Assembly: GCA_039819165.1 (NCBI GenBank)
Contig: JBCBSM010000001.1
Location: 744,001 to 808,000 of the forward strand
DNA length: 64,000 bases
Direction: 5' to 3'
DNA from: Planctomycetota bacterium
GTDB lineage: Bacteria > Planctomycetota > Phycisphaerae > Phycisphaerales > UBA1924
Part shown: positions 1 through 4,960 of the stretch, piece by piece
How positions within the stretch are numbered: the stretch's first letter is position 1
Layout of the letters: every line of letters starts with the position of its first letter
Translations under genes and position numbers: made by a program
The notes under the pieces: model-generated
Databases searched by the model: none
Told to the model about the DNA's origin: nothing
What the model saw: the letters and a program-made list of their open reading frames with translations, nothing else

Positions 1-324
1 CCAGAAGTCTGGGTCACGGACAGCGATCTCCATCCGAATATCTCGGTACCACAAATCGCCGTAGTCCTGGGCCTTTCGTCCGGTTCGCCTGGACAGTTGG
101 TCAGCGACATACACCGCCGCTGCGATCTCGATAAGATCGGCTGCTCGCTTCGGCACATTGGCCGTCAGCGACTTGGAGATCTCTGAAATCTTGATAACGA
201 CATTGCTTGCAGGACCATCTGTGATGAGTTCTGTAGCCTTTAGCTCACGCCACAGCTTCCGGCGGCTAGAGAGGCCTGCGCCGTTGCACAAGAACAGATG
301 CGGCTTGGGCGGATCAGGAGGCAT
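1..324 (-). CDS. QueC-like (7-cyano-7-deazaguanine synthase-like) protein, N-terminal fragment
   Basis: Open from ATG at 324 through the left window edge, 108 codons without a stop; the rest of the protein lies outside. It starts inside the 3' end of the upstream gene (11-base overlap), with GGAGGAG about 3-5 bases before the ATG. The visible part has a basic region, then AADLIEIAAAVYVADQ and, at the edge, a segment ending AVRDPDFW. From memory this arrangement (a DL-EIA-VY-AD helix, then a strand ending VRDPDxW) is typical of the N-terminal extension of QueC-like ATP-pyrophosphatase proteins found in defence loci (QatC-like or type IV CBASS Cap9-like), rather than housekeeping QueC. The catalytic SGGxDS loop would come later and cannot be seen, so the family call is an inference. 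Low local GC and the neighbouring recombinase suggest acquired DNA. Confidence 0.45.
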   Translation of the reverse strand, partial: MPPDPPKPHLFLCNGAGLSSRRKLWRELKATELITDGPASNVVIKISEISKSLTANVPKRAADLIEIAAAVYVADQLSRRTGRKAQDYGDLWYRDIRMEIAVRDPDFW

Positions 325-1171
325 CCGCTCCTCCGAGATGCGTCAGCGCATCGCCCACCTTCTCCAAAGCATGACGGACAAAGCCAGCACTCTTCCGAGG
401 TGTGATGCCGTCTTGAAAGTTGTGCTTGGAGTACCAAGTTCCCGAGAACTCTTTGAGCACAGACGACGCGGTTCGACAATGCGCTTCCATCGCCGATAGG
501 AATGCATTGTGCTCGGACACGTCGGCGAACCTGCGGCCCGGCCCGACGTGGTTCGAGAGCTCCTTGCTCAAGTGATAGATGAGAAATCCGCTTGCCACAC
601 GACCGAAAAAGTCTTGGGTCAGGCGAGCGAATCCTGACTGCGTGGACAGCCGACGCAATGCATCTTGAACAGCGTCCGGCCCTGTACCGAAGAGGGTATT
701 CGCATACTCCTGACCCAGCACCGTTAGGCTTTGAGCGGCGGCCCGCTGAGCGATCTCGCTAAGGTCCGAGCGAGTTCGTGTCATGGCCAGATGGTCATCG
801 ATGGCGTACGTGAAGTTCCCGACCAAGTCGTAGATGGTGTTGGCAATAGCGGTACCATCGCCTTGGGATGGACTGAACTCCCATGCGCTGCCCGTGACCC
901 CAAGCTCAGCCAGGCGCTCGTTGAAGCGGTCTTCATCCCGAGCTGCCTGCGTGACCTGTGTCAGCAAGTAGAACGTATGAATCAGGCCTTCATCGTTCGC
1001 AGCACGCTCGAATCCCGCAATCGCAGCGGTGAGCATCGCGTCAGCCACCTGCGCGAGCGCAGCTTGGCCCACGCCGGGCAAACCCGTCATGCCAGCACCA
1101 TCGCCCAGCATGGCGACAACGCGTCTATGCGATGGCGTAACCGGTAGGCTTTCGACCTGATGGTGGCCCAT
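314..1171 (-). CDS. Uncharacterised 285-residue partner of the QueC-like gene
   Basis: I cannot name this family. The ATG at 1171 is preceded by GGAGA at about nine bases. The protein is soluble, mostly helical by composition, with no signal peptide or membrane segment. Distinctive stretches are GFERAANDEGLIHTFYLLTQ near residue 55, an FFGRVASGFLIYHLSKEL helix near 190, and a C-terminal WYSKHNF...GITPRKSAGFVRHAL block. Its last codons overlap the start of the QueC-like gene, so the two are translationally coupled and probably work together. It does not look like QatB as I remember that protein (long Gly/Pro-rich N-terminus). The base composition is lower in GC than the core genome to the right. 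A role in phage defence is inference from context only. Confidence 0.6.
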   Translation of the reverse strand: MGHHQVESLPVTPSHRRVVAMLGDGAGMTGLPGVGQAALAQVADAMLTAAIAGFERAANDEGLIHTFYLLTQVTQAARDEDRFNERLAELGVTGSAWEFSPSQGDGTAIANTIYDLVGNFTYAIDDHLAMTRTRSDLSEIAQRAAAQSLTVLGQEYANTLFGTGPDAVQDALRRLSTQSGFARLTQDFFGRVASGFLIYHLSKELSNHVGPGRRFADVSEHNAFLSAMEAHCRTASSVLKEFSGTWYSKHNFQDGITPRKSAGFVRHALEKVGDALTHLGGADAS

Positions 1172-1653
1172 AGGGAGGGTTCTCCGCTAGAGGGCCGCCA
1201 AGCTATCTCGGACACGTCGAGGTGGAGAGGCCCTATGCCGATGTCCGAAACGGCCGCCCATGTTGCCGTCCGAATACCGGACTGCATCGGCACTTAAAGT
1301 GCAGCTCATGAGTCAGAGCTATAGCCAGGATCGGGATCACCACAGAGAATCAATGCCTATGCGAAACGCTCGCTTACACGAAGTGTCCTTATCGGAACTA
1401 CGGGCATCACGCACGGTCCCCGTTGGCGCAGAAGTCGGACACCGTCTTCGGACATCTTCCAGGGTCTGGCCTCTAGCATTCCGTCACTCGATCCAGCCAT
1501 TCGCACTGCTCCCGATGACCAGACTCGCAGCAGGACTGGGTGAGCTGAAGATGACATCCCGCTCAGAGCGGAAGCCGTTATTCGCCGTCGATGACTATTC
1601 CTCTTCGACCGCAATGACAACATTCTGTCCCTGGGTTGACCGGGAATCAGTGT
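1172..1653. other. Intergenic stretch between the QueC-like pair and the recombinase cassette
   Basis: No convincing gene in 482 bases; the short open frames have no recognisable protein. It holds the upstream region of the 285-residue gene, a 13-base palindrome at 1290-1302, and several copies of GTCCGA/TCGGAC (about 1208, 1245, 1269, 1437 and 1454). It could contain the joint between two acquired segments. Confidence 0.5.
1290..1302. repeat. Perfect 13-base palindrome GCACTTAAAGTGC
   Basis: Two 6-base arms around one central A, about 120 bases upstream of the 285-residue gene. It has the size of a dimeric regulator operator or a recombination core; nothing in the sequence decides between these. 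Confidence 0.35.
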
Positions 1654-2061
1654 TTAAGCCTTTGCGTGACAGATTCTTGGACTTTGGTGGCCACGCCATG
1701 CTTCCCGCTGTGACGTCCAAACGCATAGCGTCACGATCTCCCGCAGATCCCGTTCCGTCACCGGATCCCGCCCCTCCGTCACAGGTGGCAGGAACAGAAT
1801 CTCCTCTTGGATATCCGGGGCCAGATGAAGCAGGTTCATGATCTGCGTCATCCGCGGCTGGGTCACTCGGGCCAAGGCCGCCAAGTCGGTCTGGCTGCCC
1901 ACCACCCCGTCCTGAAGCATCCGATCGAACTTGATCGCCAGGGCCATCAGGCGGGCGACTCGGGGCACCCGCCCCGGCGGAGGGAGCGGAGCGGGCTCGG
2001 TGACGATCCGCCGCCGGGTTTGGCGGACGCGGAAGTGGATGGGCCGGGTGACGGTGGTCAT
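1654..2061 (-). CDS. Small ParB-like/HTH protein of serine-recombinase cassettes
   Basis: 135 residues, last gene of the recombinase cassette; its ATG at 2061 overlaps the recombinase stop in ATGA. After a basic N-terminus (TRPIHFRV, then an Arg-rich stretch) comes GRVPRVARLMALAIKFDRML, then a helix-turn-helix region, SQTDLAALARVTQPRMTQIMNLLHLAPDIQEEILFLP in outline (residues about 56-92), resembling the HTH of ParB-like proteins. Proteins of this type sit directly downstream of large serine recombinases with DUF2924 partners in many proteobacterial and planctomycete islands, where they may act as recombination directionality or regulatory factors; that role is not proven. The last 15 or so residues look less conserved than I would expect, so the extreme C-terminus may have been replaced at the element boundary. 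Confidence 0.75.
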   Translation of the reverse strand: MTTVTRPIHFRVRQTRRRIVTEPAPLPPPGRVPRVARLMALAIKFDRMLQDGVVGSQTDLAALARVTQPRMTQIMNLLHLAPDIQEEILFLPPVTEGRDPVTERDLREIVTLCVWTSQREAWRGHQSPRICHAKA

Positions 2062-3653
2062 GCCGCCTCCTTGTTGATGCGGTCGAGAAATGCCCGGATG
2101 CTTGTCGGCCGAAAGGTCACGCTCACGCTCGACTTGACGGCGTCGTATTCCACCGCCGAGACCAGCAGCCGGATCAGCCGGGCCTGCTCACGCGGGATCA
2201 GGTTCTCCCATACGGGGTCGAAGCCCCTGAATGCCGCCTCGGCCTGCGCTTGGGTGATCGTCTCTGCGTCCAGTTCGCCGATCCGCTTCTCGACCTCGGG
2301 CAGCCGCTTGTCCCCGGCGGTGATCTGCTCATGCAGTTCTGCGATCCGCTGGGAGACATCTGTATCCGCGAGCCCTCCGGCCGCGAGCGTCTGAAGTTCG
2401 CGGTGGCAACGGTCCAGCGTCCGCTTCAGATCGGCACGCTCCGTGACTAGACCCTCGCGCTCCTCGGCGATCGTGGCGTGGGCGTCGGCCAGCACCTGCT
2501 TGAGCAAGGCTCGATCGGAGCCCAACCCGCGGATCTCGTCGACCACCACCCGCTCGATCTCCGCTGCCGGCAGCGTCCGCGACGGGCACTCGTCTGCCCC
2601 GTTCTTGATGGCGTGCGTACAACGGTAGTAGCGGTAGAACCGCGGCCCGCCCTTCTTGTCCTTCGTGAATGTGTGCGTCATTGCATACCCGCACGCCTTG
2701 CAAGTAATCAGACCACGCAGCAGGGCACCGTACTTGTTGCGGACCTCGAAGCCCCCGGTCCGGCCGTTGTAGCGCAGCAGCTTCTGCACCCGCTCGAAGA
2801 CCTCCGGGTCGACGATGGCCTCGTGCACGCCGTCGTAGATCTCGCCCTTATGGGTGATTTTGCCGATGTACACGGGGTTCACGAGGTGATTGTGCAGCGT
2901 GGCCTTATTGAACGGCTTCCCGCCGATGACCTTGCCTGTCTTCTTCGTGACCCGCTTTTTGTTGGTCCACTCGCGGTGCCGCAGCTCGCGGACGACTGGC
3001 AGCAGCGACTGCTTATCCAGGTACAGATCGAACAGGGCGCGAACCCGCACCGCCTCGCGGGCGTTCACCACGAGCCGTGGGCTCGGGCCGGAGCGATCCA
3101 CGTCGTAGCCCAGCACCGGCACACCGCCCGCCCACTTGCCCTTGCGCTTCTGGGCCGCGATCTTGTCCCGGATCCGTTCGCCGATGATCTCCCGCTCGAA
3201 CTGGGCGAACGAGAGCAAGATGTTCAGCGTCAGACGGCCCATCGAGCTCGTCGTGTTGAACTGCTGGGTCACCGAGACGAACGACACGCCCTTGCGGTCG
3301 AACGCCTCCATGATCTTGGCGAAGTCCATCAGCGAGCGGCTGAGCCGGTCAACTTTGTAGACCACGACGCAGTCGATCTTTCCCGCCTCTATATCGCGGA
3401 GCAGATGCCCGAGCGCCGGCCGCTCGATGCTGCCACCGGAGAAGCCACCATCGTCGTACCGGTCTGGCAGGCAGACCCACCCCTCGGTCTTCTGGCTGGA
3501 GATGAAAGCCTCAGCGCTCTCGCGCTGGGCGTCGAGCGAGTTGAACTCCTGATCGAGCCCCTCGTCGCTGGACTTGCGGGTGTACACCGCACACCGCATG
3601 CGGCTGCCCGGGGCGGCGGCCTCCTTTGGCCGATCGCGTTTGCGTACCTTCAT
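2058..3653 (-). CDS. Large serine recombinase (site-specific integrase)
   Basis: About 531 residues from ATG 3653, chosen because it overlaps the stop of the DUF2924 gene (ATGA) and has AGGAG just upstream. N-terminal resolvase domain: the catalytic serine lies in VYTRKSSDEG, with conserved arginines in KVDRLSRSLMDF and the FEREIIGERIRDKI helix. The recombinase domain follows (GVPVLGYDV, HNHLVNPVYIGKI), then a zinc ribbon CKACGY...CTH...ECPSR and a long C-terminal coiled-coil segment rich in Glu and Arg. This is the full architecture of large serine integrases that insert and excise mobile elements without high-energy cofactors. No domain is missing and no frameshift is visible, so it may be active. 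Its element probably includes the neighbouring small genes and perhaps the QueC-like pair. Confidence 0.93.
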   Translation of the reverse strand: MKVRKRDRPKEAAAPGSRMRCAVYTRKSSDEGLDQEFNSLDAQRESAEAFISSQKTEGWVCLPDRYDDGGFSGGSIERPALGHLLRDIEAGKIDCVVVYKVDRLSRSLMDFAKIMEAFDRKGVSFVSVTQQFNTTSSMGRLTLNILLSFAQFEREIIGERIRDKIAAQKRKGKWAGGVPVLGYDVDRSGPSPRLVVNAREAVRVRALFDLYLDKQSLLPVVRELRHREWTNKKRVTKKTGKVIGGKPFNKATLHNHLVNPVYIGKITHKGEIYDGVHEAIVDPEVFERVQKLLRYNGRTGGFEVRNKYGALLRGLITCKACGYAMTHTFTKDKKGGPRFYRYYRCTHAIKNGADECPSRTLPAAEIERVVVDEIRGLGSDRALLKQVLADAHATIAEEREGLVTERADLKRTLDRCHRELQTLAAGGLADTDVSQRIAELHEQITAGDKRLPEVEKRIGELDAETITQAQAEAAFRGFDPVWENLIPREQARLIRLLVSAVEYDAVKSSVSVTFRPTSIRAFLDRINKEAA

Positions 3654-4207
3654 CGCGTGCTCCTGTCCTGGCCGAGCCGGAAGAACCGGAAGCCGTTGAT
3701 GTGGCTCCCGGTGATGTGTTTGGCCACCCCGCTGAGCGTCTTGAACCGTTCGCCGTCGCACTCGAAGCCCTCGCCGTAGGGGAGCACCAGCACCCGGATG
3801 GTCCGGCCCTGGTATTCGCGGACGATCGCTGAGCCGGGCGGCGGGACACGCGGGTCACGCTCCGCCTCCGGGTCGAGTCCCCGCGTCACCGTGGCGGACC
3901 GCCCTGTCTGTGGCGGCGTGACAAGCGTCTTTGGGGCCATTACCCGAACCTCAGCGTCGTCCGCGAGCTCCGCGGCCCGCTTCCTCGCCCGCTCGCTGAG
4001 GTGACCCTCCTCGTTGGCCTGAAGCCGCCAGGCGATCTTGCGGATCAGGTACGTCCGGTGGCGCGTCCGCGTCTGGTAGCCGTGCAGCTCGACAAACCGC
4101 TCCACGAGCTCGTTGGTGGACATGTCTTTGAGCGAGTCGATCTCGTCCTCGATCCGTCTTGCCGTCGCATGCTTCATGCGGCCTCCTGTGGCTGGTGTCT
4201 CCATCAC
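3650..4207 (-). CDS. DUF2924 domain protein of the recombinase cassette
   Basis: 185 residues. The start at 4207 overlaps the upstream stop (ATGA) and has AGGAG at a good distance; a second possible start, 4177, also has AGGAGG but only four bases away. The conserved DUF2924 pattern is visible: SLKDMSTNELVERFVELHG, RTYLIRKIAWRLQANEEG, LSERARKRAAELADDA, then after a linker REYQGRTIRVLVL, GFECDGERFKTLSGVAKHITG and NGFRFFRLG. The last part resembles a small DNA-binding module (RAMA-like fold). DUF2924 genes typically lie immediately upstream of large serine recombinases, as here; they may assist attachment-site recognition, which is an inference. Confidence 0.88.
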   Translation of the reverse strand: MMETPATGGRMKHATARRIEDEIDSLKDMSTNELVERFVELHGYQTRTRHRTYLIRKIAWRLQANEEGHLSERARKRAAELADDAEVRVMAPKTLVTPPQTGRSATVTRGLDPEAERDPRVPPPGSAIVREYQGRTIRVLVLPYGEGFECDGERFKTLSGVAKHITGSHINGFRFFRLGQDRSTR

Positions 4208-4452
4208 GCATCTCCTTCACCCGCCGGTCGGGATTTGGATAGCGTCGCCACAGTGGGGCTCGGATCGCTCGGAAGTTCAAGGCATGTCGCGGCACCTTCT
4301 TCAACTTCACGCAACGCCCGCGATGCGGCGTCCCGCTCGATGCGAACCGCACGCACGAGACCACGCGCGAGGATGCGCGAGATCTCGTCCTGCCGCTCTT
4401 CGGATGTCATCGCTTCGGGGTTGCGCCGGCTGTCGTCGCTCGCTCGTGGCAT
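4204..4452 (-). CDS. Small hypothetical protein opening the recombinase cassette
   Basis: About 82 residues if started at ATG 4452 (GGAG eight bases upstream); a shorter start at 4410 is possible. The core reads TSEERQDEISRILARGLVRAVR, a pattern seen in small proteins that precede DUF2924 genes; the remainder is polar and low in complexity. Its stop overlaps the DUF2924 start in ATGA, making it the first of four translationally coupled genes. Function unknown. Confidence 0.6.
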   Translation of the reverse strand: MPRASDDSRRNPEAMTSEERQDEISRILARGLVRAVRIERDAASRALREVEEGAATCLELPSDPSPTVATLSKSRPAGEGDA

Positions 4453-4831
4453 GAGTCGCTCCACGGCGACCCGCGTGCATCGCGACCTCGCCACGGGTGA
4501 CCTATGACGCCGCGTAACAGCGGTGCGCGCCCGCTTCACCGCAGCGCATCTATTGGATCAATGTCGCGAGCAGCCCTTGCAGTTGATCACCCCCGTCAAA
4601 CCCGCTCACCCGGTCGAACAGAGACTTCACCGCGGCGGGTGTCTCTCGGCGGGCGGCAGAGACTCCGGGGCGATTCGGGCGAAGTCGCGCCCGCCGAGCG
4701 GCCGAGCCGGTTATCCCGGCGTCCAGACCAGAGACCGCGTCACGGTTAGGGACCGTTGGCCCACCGGCCCCACGGACGCGGGAACGGGGCCCGAAGAGGC
4801 CGACACGCGCGGGTGTCTCTCACCGGCCCGG
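4453..4831. other. Non-coding junction between the recombinase cassette and tRNA-fMet
   Basis: About 380 bases with no credible protein gene. It should contain the cassette promoter and perhaps the attachment site. It includes two copies of a 13-base direct repeat and a GTCTCT...AGAGAC inverted repeat at 4641-4663. No -35/-10 pair stood out. Confidence 0.45.
4635..4821. repeat. 13-base direct repeat GCGGGTGTCTCTC, two copies
   Basis: Copies at 4635-4647 and 4809-4821, 174 bases apart. The first is followed by an inverted AGAGAC (4658-4663). These could be integrase or regulator binding sites, or remains of an attachment site; the sequence alone cannot tell. Confidence 0.5.
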
Positions 4832-4870
4832 CCCAAAAACCACAAAGCCGGCTGCTTTCGCAACCGGCTT
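4832..4870 (-). terminator. Intrinsic terminator of tRNA-fMet
   Basis: On the minus strand an 11-base-pair stem (one G-T pair) closed by a GAAA tetraloop occupies 4870-4845, followed by TGTGGTTTTTGG. It begins six bases after the tRNA. Confidence 0.75.
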
Positions 4871-4875
4871 GGGAA

Positions 4876-4949
<74 letters not shown>

Positions 4950-4960
4950 ATCAGGTCGCG

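Follow-up and report, generated by a model that had tools for sequence, protein, structure and literature searches.

A prophage-borne gene pair of a Planctomycetota bacterium as a probable stand-alone QatBC-type anti-phage module

The described systems closest to the gene pair reported here are QatABCD and type IV CBASS. The Cap9 enzyme of type IV CBASS attaches a deazaguanine to the glycine at a protein N-terminus (PMC13279940; PMC11996544). The QatB protein of qatABCD starts with the residues MGTS of which Gly2 is essential for defence (PMC13279940). The G2D change in QatB and alterations in the active site of QatC each abolish defence, as does deletion of QatB residues 16-22 which include a conserved proline and a conserved tryptophan (PMC13279940). 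QatB is described as having ten helices and a low-confidence N-terminus, and QatBC alone protects E. coli against some phages (PMC13279940). The tyrosine and aspartate pair employed by QueC and Cap9 for the deazaguanine is a pair of threonines in QatC (PMC13279940), and queuosine is not restored by QatC in a queC mutant (PMC13329287). The qatA gene is reported to be located beside only 34.3% of QatC-cluster genes (PMC13329287), and thus many QatC-type genes are without qatA. The reaction performed by QatC and the means by which QatB modification restricts phage are stated as open questions in PMC13279940. A published description of a stand-alone pair was not found in titles or abstract openings, nor in the available parts of PMC13329287.

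The window that was analyzed is a 64,000-nucleotide stretch of DNA (G000:C1:744001-808000) which opens with the N-terminal part of a QatC-like gene (window 1..324, minus strand; first 108 of 591 codons). The remainder lies to the left of the window, and the full gene specifies 591 amino acids (G000:C1:742549-744324, minus strand). The original prediction, that this truncated gene is QueC-like of the kind found in defence loci, was borne out by a match to QatC in PADLOC with an E value of 9.7e-58. Immediately upstream, an intact ORF (314..1171, minus strand) encodes a QatB-like partner of 285 aa, which is putatively modified at its N-terminal glycine by the QatC-like enzyme. The first 15 codons of the partner (1127..1171, minus strand) correspond to the conserved motif M-G-H.....L-P....W in which the initiator Met is followed by Gly2. 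The stop codon of the partner gene and the start codon of the enzyme gene overlap by 11 nt (314..324, minus strand), which suggests translational coupling. The overlap was 4, 8, 11, 14 or 26 nt in 59 copies of the pair, 34 of which had the 11-nt version, when near-identical copies were included and the enzyme gene was assumed to begin at whichever start codon was closest to the start of the profile.

The window copy of the enzyme (591 aa) carries LLFSGGIDSLGG and a zinc-type cysteine cluster. Inspection of the sequence to the left of the window for an SGGxDS motif, as had been proposed, located an SGGIDS loop in the completed gene, along with the zinc cysteines and the T/T site of QatC. A missing ATP-pyrophosphatase loop or ordinary metabolic neighbors had been named in advance as observations that would speak against a defence module: the loop is present and the neighbors are phage genes. 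Solved QatC structures were matched by the window enzyme in phmmer searches (9vlk, E 8.5e-32; 9zee, E 1.4e-24), and the NCBIfam QatC equivalog gave 212.2 bits which is below its curated cut-off of 280. The enzyme might instead produce a small 7-deazaguanine-type metabolite for DNA or tRNA modification, with the partner as an accessory, as the over-threshold match to the Pfam QueC family (PF06508, E 1.9e-06) could imply. Canonical QueC was present in 11/11 carriers searched, a count also in keeping with that proposal which was set aside because it lacks a background rate. However, the canonical QueC equivalog TIGR00364 scored 21 bits against a cut-off of 150.3, far below the required value, T/T replaces the Y-x-D deazaguanine site of canonical QueC and Cap9 in the pair enzymes, and QatC itself fails to substitute for QueC in queuosine synthesis (PMC13329287), all of which render metabolite production very improbable. 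The window enzyme resembles QatC and not Cap9 or QueC, albeit below the NCBIfam QatC cut-off.

Conservation was assessed in an alignment of 26 pair enzymes, 11 qatABCD QatCs and two enzymes of a third kind that are discussed below, with residue roles taken from PMC13279940. The SGGxDS loop, residue D63 and each of the four zinc cysteines were found in 26/26 pair enzymes, and the ATP-pocket residues were kept in 25-26 of the 26 (H189, 26; R237, 26; F241, 25). The positions of the QatC threonine pair were occupied by T or S in every pair enzyme and by T in 25/26. The loop that contacts QatB in the crystal had a length of 18 residues in all 26 pair enzymes and in all 11 qatABCD QatCs. The proline of the P(x)4TK motif of QatC is glutamate in the window enzyme, and is proline in 21/26 pair rows and 9/11 qat rows. 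The first zinc cysteine precedes CGxC by 12 residues in the window enzyme and by a reported 19 residues in E. coli QatC (PMC13329287). The predicted model of the enzyme from a relative, L062, aligned with QatC with a Z score of 34 across residues 2-474, compared to 14 for QueC and 13.3 for Cap9. The pair enzymes (100/99) and the qatABCD enzymes (98/92) each formed a clade in a tree of 39 rows that was left unrooted, with long branches for three of the qatABCD rows.

The C-terminal regions of the pair enzymes are variable. Residues 512-626 of the L062 enzyme resembled OmpR-type winged-helix domains in model comparisons (CovR, Z 10.2; RstA, Z 9.3), and the enzyme encoded by a Leptospira noguchii plasmid (L065:4780-6645) terminates in a DpnII/MboI restriction-nuclease domain (PF18742, E 1.3e-10). 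Of ten C-terminal enzyme pieces that were searched, nine, including the 127 residues from the window enzyme, matched no Pfam family over the cut-off.

The prediction that the 285-residue partner belongs to no known family was upheld in PADLOC (2023), Pfam and NCBIfam, none of which provided an acceptable match, and sequence searches recovered no solved relative of the protein. An IclR_C match (E 0.21) was below the cut-off and was taken as chance. The further claim that the partner is unlike QatB is correct at the sequence level: profile comparisons with QatB using hhalign yielded values of 4.7% and 10%, and no sequence homology was shown. A QatB HMM (A5) matched no partner among the pair loci; the same HMM matched 3/4 qat loci, all three of which were used in its building, and missed L069. 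Elsewhere, this HMM detected QatB in 10/398 genomes from the phylum of genome G432, none of which were among the pair-bearing genomes.

The partner starts with M-G-H in 62/63 rows when near-identical ones were included; the exception, L048, is split over two frames. Loci from a scan that was seeded with MGH were left out of the evidence for this motif because the seeding rested partly on it. Among intact lineages that were recovered instead by whole-protein or profile searches, M-G-H was present in 13/13 and the enzyme gene came after the partner in each. In that count, G001, G005 and G032 were treated as one with the window copy, and the following were dropped beforehand: L083 (E 9e-4, regarded as spurious), L087 (truncated at its start, with the enzyme gene after it), L088 (a fragment with neither MGH nor an enzyme match), L089 (a match of ~55 residues with MGH and without an enzyme match), L090 (stop codons), and the centres G432 and G434 which were already in the seeded scan. 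Across 27 aligned partners, M1, G2 and H3 were invariant and L9, P10 and W15 were conserved in at least 90%. The consensus start is MGHxRLGxLPRTRKW, with H in the position of W15 in the window copy.

The AF2 model of the partner (pLDDT 82.8, pTM 0.83) consists of ten helices and a low-confidence N-terminus. When the model was compared with 997 chains using VIA-align, the best match was the QatB chain 9y01_A (Z 13.0, rmsd 3.7, 205 of 215 residues) followed by a second QatB chain (Z 12.0, 205 of 211 residues), values that are read with the caution that helical bundles with Z under about 13 may reflect a common arrangement only. Both chains derive from a QatB-QatC complex, and the next unrelated chain, which is dynamin-like, had a Z score of 6.4. 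Foldseek comparison with the PDB returned nothing at E ≤0.001 and no QatB among the best 50 matches listed. The partner could be considered an unrelated helical bundle, and the pair a QueC-type protein-modification system in its own right that arrived at an exposed glycine by convergence, a view with which the lack of a detectable sequence relation to QatB, the Foldseek outcome, the position of Z 13 at the edge of the cautioned range for helical proteins, and the MGH start in place of MGTS are all compatible. Nevertheless, this convergence is unlikely as the top two places among the 997 chains are both taken by QatB, by a wide margin and with almost complete coverage, and the QatB-binding loop of the enzyme is exactly the QatC length. 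The assignment of the predicted partner structure as nearest to a QatB-like fold is based on the drop in Z score after the QatB chains, on the full coverage, and on the status of QatB as the known partner of QatC. Thus, the dissimilarity to QatB that had been claimed does not extend to the protein overall: the nearest predicted fold is QatB and the N-terminal glycine is of the QatB style. It follows that a divergent two-gene QatBC-type module describes the pair better than an unrelated system would, a label that rests on the partner fold and its QatB-like N-terminal glycine. The tail preceding the first predicted helix of the partner is ~12 residues in length and, on the basis of the model, may not reach the active site in the manner of the QatB tail.

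The pair adjoins the recombinase cassette noted in the original prediction, which comprises a large serine recombinase gene (2058..3761, minus strand; resolvase, recombinase and Zn-ribbon domains PF00239, PF07508 and PF13408) and a gene for a DUF2924 integration-cassette protein (3650..4207, minus strand; PF11149, E 5.8e-35). The recombinase is the probable integrase of the element. Between the recombinase and the pair is a small ORF (1654..2061, minus strand) for a 135-aa protein that is HTH-like by eye; a similar protein recurs in L004-L009. A tRNA-Met gene (4875..4950, minus strand) is the probable attachment site, and an attR-like repeat of 44 bp at 4874..4917 (no strand assigned) is identical to G000:C1:669289-669332. 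Terminase, portal, head-protease and tape-measure genes (L002, L101) are situated between the 44-bp repeats, as are phage-like replication genes followed by the pair and the recombinase. The pair sits in a prophage beside tRNA-Met. The expectation of lower-GC DNA also held, with 58.8% at window positions 1-1171 compared to 70.1% for the whole window. The GC content of the pair is 58.9%, which is below that of the host and contrasts with 68-70% in 3-kb blocks of the prophage structural genes at 711 to 726 kb. The stretch between the tRNA-Met repeats spans 79.6 kb (G000:C1:669289-748917; L099, L100, L101, L002 and window 1-4917) and also has type I restriction, PrrC-like, Mrr-like, HipA-like and metal-efflux genes. 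With these genes lying somewhere within it, the stretch may comprise two or more elements, possibly in tandem.

Residence alongside an integrase and replication genes, together with the OmpR-type winged-helix domain of the L062 enzyme (CovR and RstA matches above), would suit a prophage regulator in which the enzyme modifies the partner and, through its C-terminal DNA-binding domain, regulates genes of the phage or the host in the service of lysogeny rather than defence. Against such a function, the C-terminal module varies and in the Leptospira copy is a restriction-nuclease domain, the serine recombinase is near the pair in 31/51 loci such that the pair also is found without it, and the difference in GC between the pair and the structural genes is as for cargo. 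Hence a role in lysogeny is decidedly unlikely.

Partner homologues were detected in 7/61 relatives and in 8/392 genomes drawn from the phylum, with four genomes common to both counts, and the QatC-like gene was directly downstream of the partner in every locus of the two sets, a recurrence beyond chance. Partner matches also were evident in 4/398 genomes from the phylum of G432, including one judged spurious and the centre itself, and in 6/240 from the phylum of G434, of which one is the centre and three have nothing more than truncated or fragmentary copies. Scans with an alignment of four relatives (A3) produced 40 genome contigs and 11 viral contigs. The record titles of the scan loci named Planctomycetota, Pseudomonadota, Desulfosarcina and relatives, Opitutaceae, Sulfopaludibacter and Zixibacteriota: the pair is present in several phyla. 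Tepidicella and Caldimonas are examples of cultured environmental carriers. The partner from the window itself had no relatives among named phage and plasmid records or viral contigs, and the sequence of a relative, L010, when used as the query, recovered one plasmid from the spirochaete Leptospira noguchii and no phage record.

The enzyme gene came after the partner in 48/51 scan loci, with L046, L048 and L051 as the exceptions, and was truncated in L042 and L055. Distance correlations over 29 non-independent loci were 0.97 for partner and enzyme and 0.82 for partner and recombinase; the corresponding values were 0.96 and 0.85 after thinning to 17 loci. The partner and enzyme genes are inherited as one unit. 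G001 and G032 have an identical or almost identical partner, and as the latter is from another genus, recent transfer is suggested barring contamination of G032. The recombinases of L039 and L049 are 96% identical and their partner and enzyme proteins only 67%, as if the pair were swapped or diversifying quickly within one integration cassette. In L042, L048, L051 and L068, the last of which is beside transposase genes, the pair or the enzyme is broken or incomplete, which suggests loss.

The original prediction also advised a check of the neighborhood for an ATPase, a TatD-like nuclease and a cyclase, and QatA, QatD and a cyclase were not found beside the pair. A QatA HMM matched 0/70 pair loci, many of which are short, and in the control detected 4/4 qat loci, none of which were used in its building. 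The QatD HMM similarly matched 0/70 of these loci, many short, and 4/4 qat loci including L074 from its building set. Of the scanned contig loci, 28/51 hold more than 16 kb, and absence is weaker in the shorter ones. The KAP family, to which the QatA NTPase belongs, was absent from 9/11 carrier genomes or records, with L026 outside the count; KAP is millions of bases from the pair in the genome of L023 and is on contig C22 in that of L034. No CD-NTase or cyclase was present among the eight neighbors scanned at the locus in the window. When PADLOC was applied to 108 neighbor proteins of 16 chosen loci, methyltransferases made up most of the 25 of 179 families listed, which also included a single type II restriction enzyme and a single DruE-like protein. 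This defence-island context was given little weight because phage genomes carry methyltransferases too, and a list of 25 of 179 families does not bear on the absence of QatA or QatD.

Overall, the pair is best explained as a prophage-borne, stand-alone QatBC-type anti-phage module that modifies a glycine (probability ~0.7). The initiator methionine of the helical, QatB-fold partner would be removed to expose Gly2-His3. The QatC-like enzyme would bind the partner in a complex via the QatC-specific loop, use ATP to activate a substrate within its QueC-type pocket, and join the activated substrate to the N-terminal glycine of the partner. The modified partner would thereby be primed to block incoming phage. 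By analogy, the N-terminal conjugation would be of the same kind as that of Cap9 and would provide defence or superinfection exclusion, and the T/T site in the pair enzymes suggests that the conjugated group may differ from that of Cap9. QatA and QatD would be dispensed with, and a DNA-binding or nuclease domain fused to the enzyme may substitute for them in some lineages. A broader proposal, which is tentative and more doubtful than probable, is that the pair constitutes a third branch of QueC-family immunity: a minimal set of two proteins in which the work of QatA and QatD has moved to swappable domains fused to the enzyme (OmpR-type DNA-binding; DpnII/MboI-type nuclease), and in which Gly-His modification is distinct both from CBASS deazaguanylation and from the QatB product.

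As a natural lineage that spans several phyla with only these two genes, the pair would test independently whether QatBC is the core of the system. Moreover, the conserved start of ~15 residues nearly fills the partner tail, and thus the part that would be read by the enzyme is testable with short peptides. The fused nuclease and DNA-binding modules point toward the effector step. The partner currently escapes annotation as it has no name in PADLOC 2023 or NCBIfam.

QueC-like enzymes with other arrangements were noted on plasmids. A third kind of locus on a Rhizobium plasmid (L070:3324-7063) and a Pannonibacter plasmid (L071:3270-6973) consists of genes for a ~190-aa protein that starts MSDGPH[K/R]SLP, a QueC-like enzyme, an XRE-type protein and a ~200-aa protein that is PIN-like by eye. 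The enzymes of these loci have Y and D residues near the QatC threonine site, reminiscent of canonical QueC. Separately, an annotated qatC gene on a plasmid of Bradyrhizobium ottawaense (L078:3824-5953) is a natural QatC-QatD fusion in which the QatD model matches residues 470-711.

Compared with the third kind of locus, the pair has in common a QueC-like enzyme whose gene closely follows that of a short protein, which has an L-P motif and a conserved N-terminus. The third kind differs in the MSDGPH start, an SDGxDS loop, a 17-residue counterpart of the binding loop and extra downstream genes, and hhalign comparison of its partner with the pair partner gave only 1.4%. With type IV CBASS, the pair shares a QueC-family enzyme that adjoins a protein with a predicted exposed N-terminal glycine, and the kind of reaction is likely to be shared. 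In contrast to type IV CBASS, the window locus is without a cyclase among the neighbors scanned, and Cap9 is an enzyme of ~185 aa that keeps the Y/D deazaguanine site absent from the pair enzymes (Cap9 values from PMC13329287 and PMC13279940). The similarities with QatABCD are more extensive: the QatC fold, modeled for the L062 relative (Z 34), the SGGxDS loop, T-x-T, the zinc site and the 18-residue QatB-binding loop are held in common, as is a helical partner with N-terminal Met-Gly that is encoded just upstream of the enzyme. The pair differs from QatABCD in that QatA and QatD were not found alongside, the partner is unrecognizable by sequence and begins with MGH instead of the MGTS of QatB, and the partner tail is ~12 residues compared to 65 in P. 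aeruginosa QatB. Furthermore, the pair enzymes occupy a separate clade (100/99) in which some members possess extra C-terminal modules, and a serine recombinase accompanies the pair in 31/51 loci.
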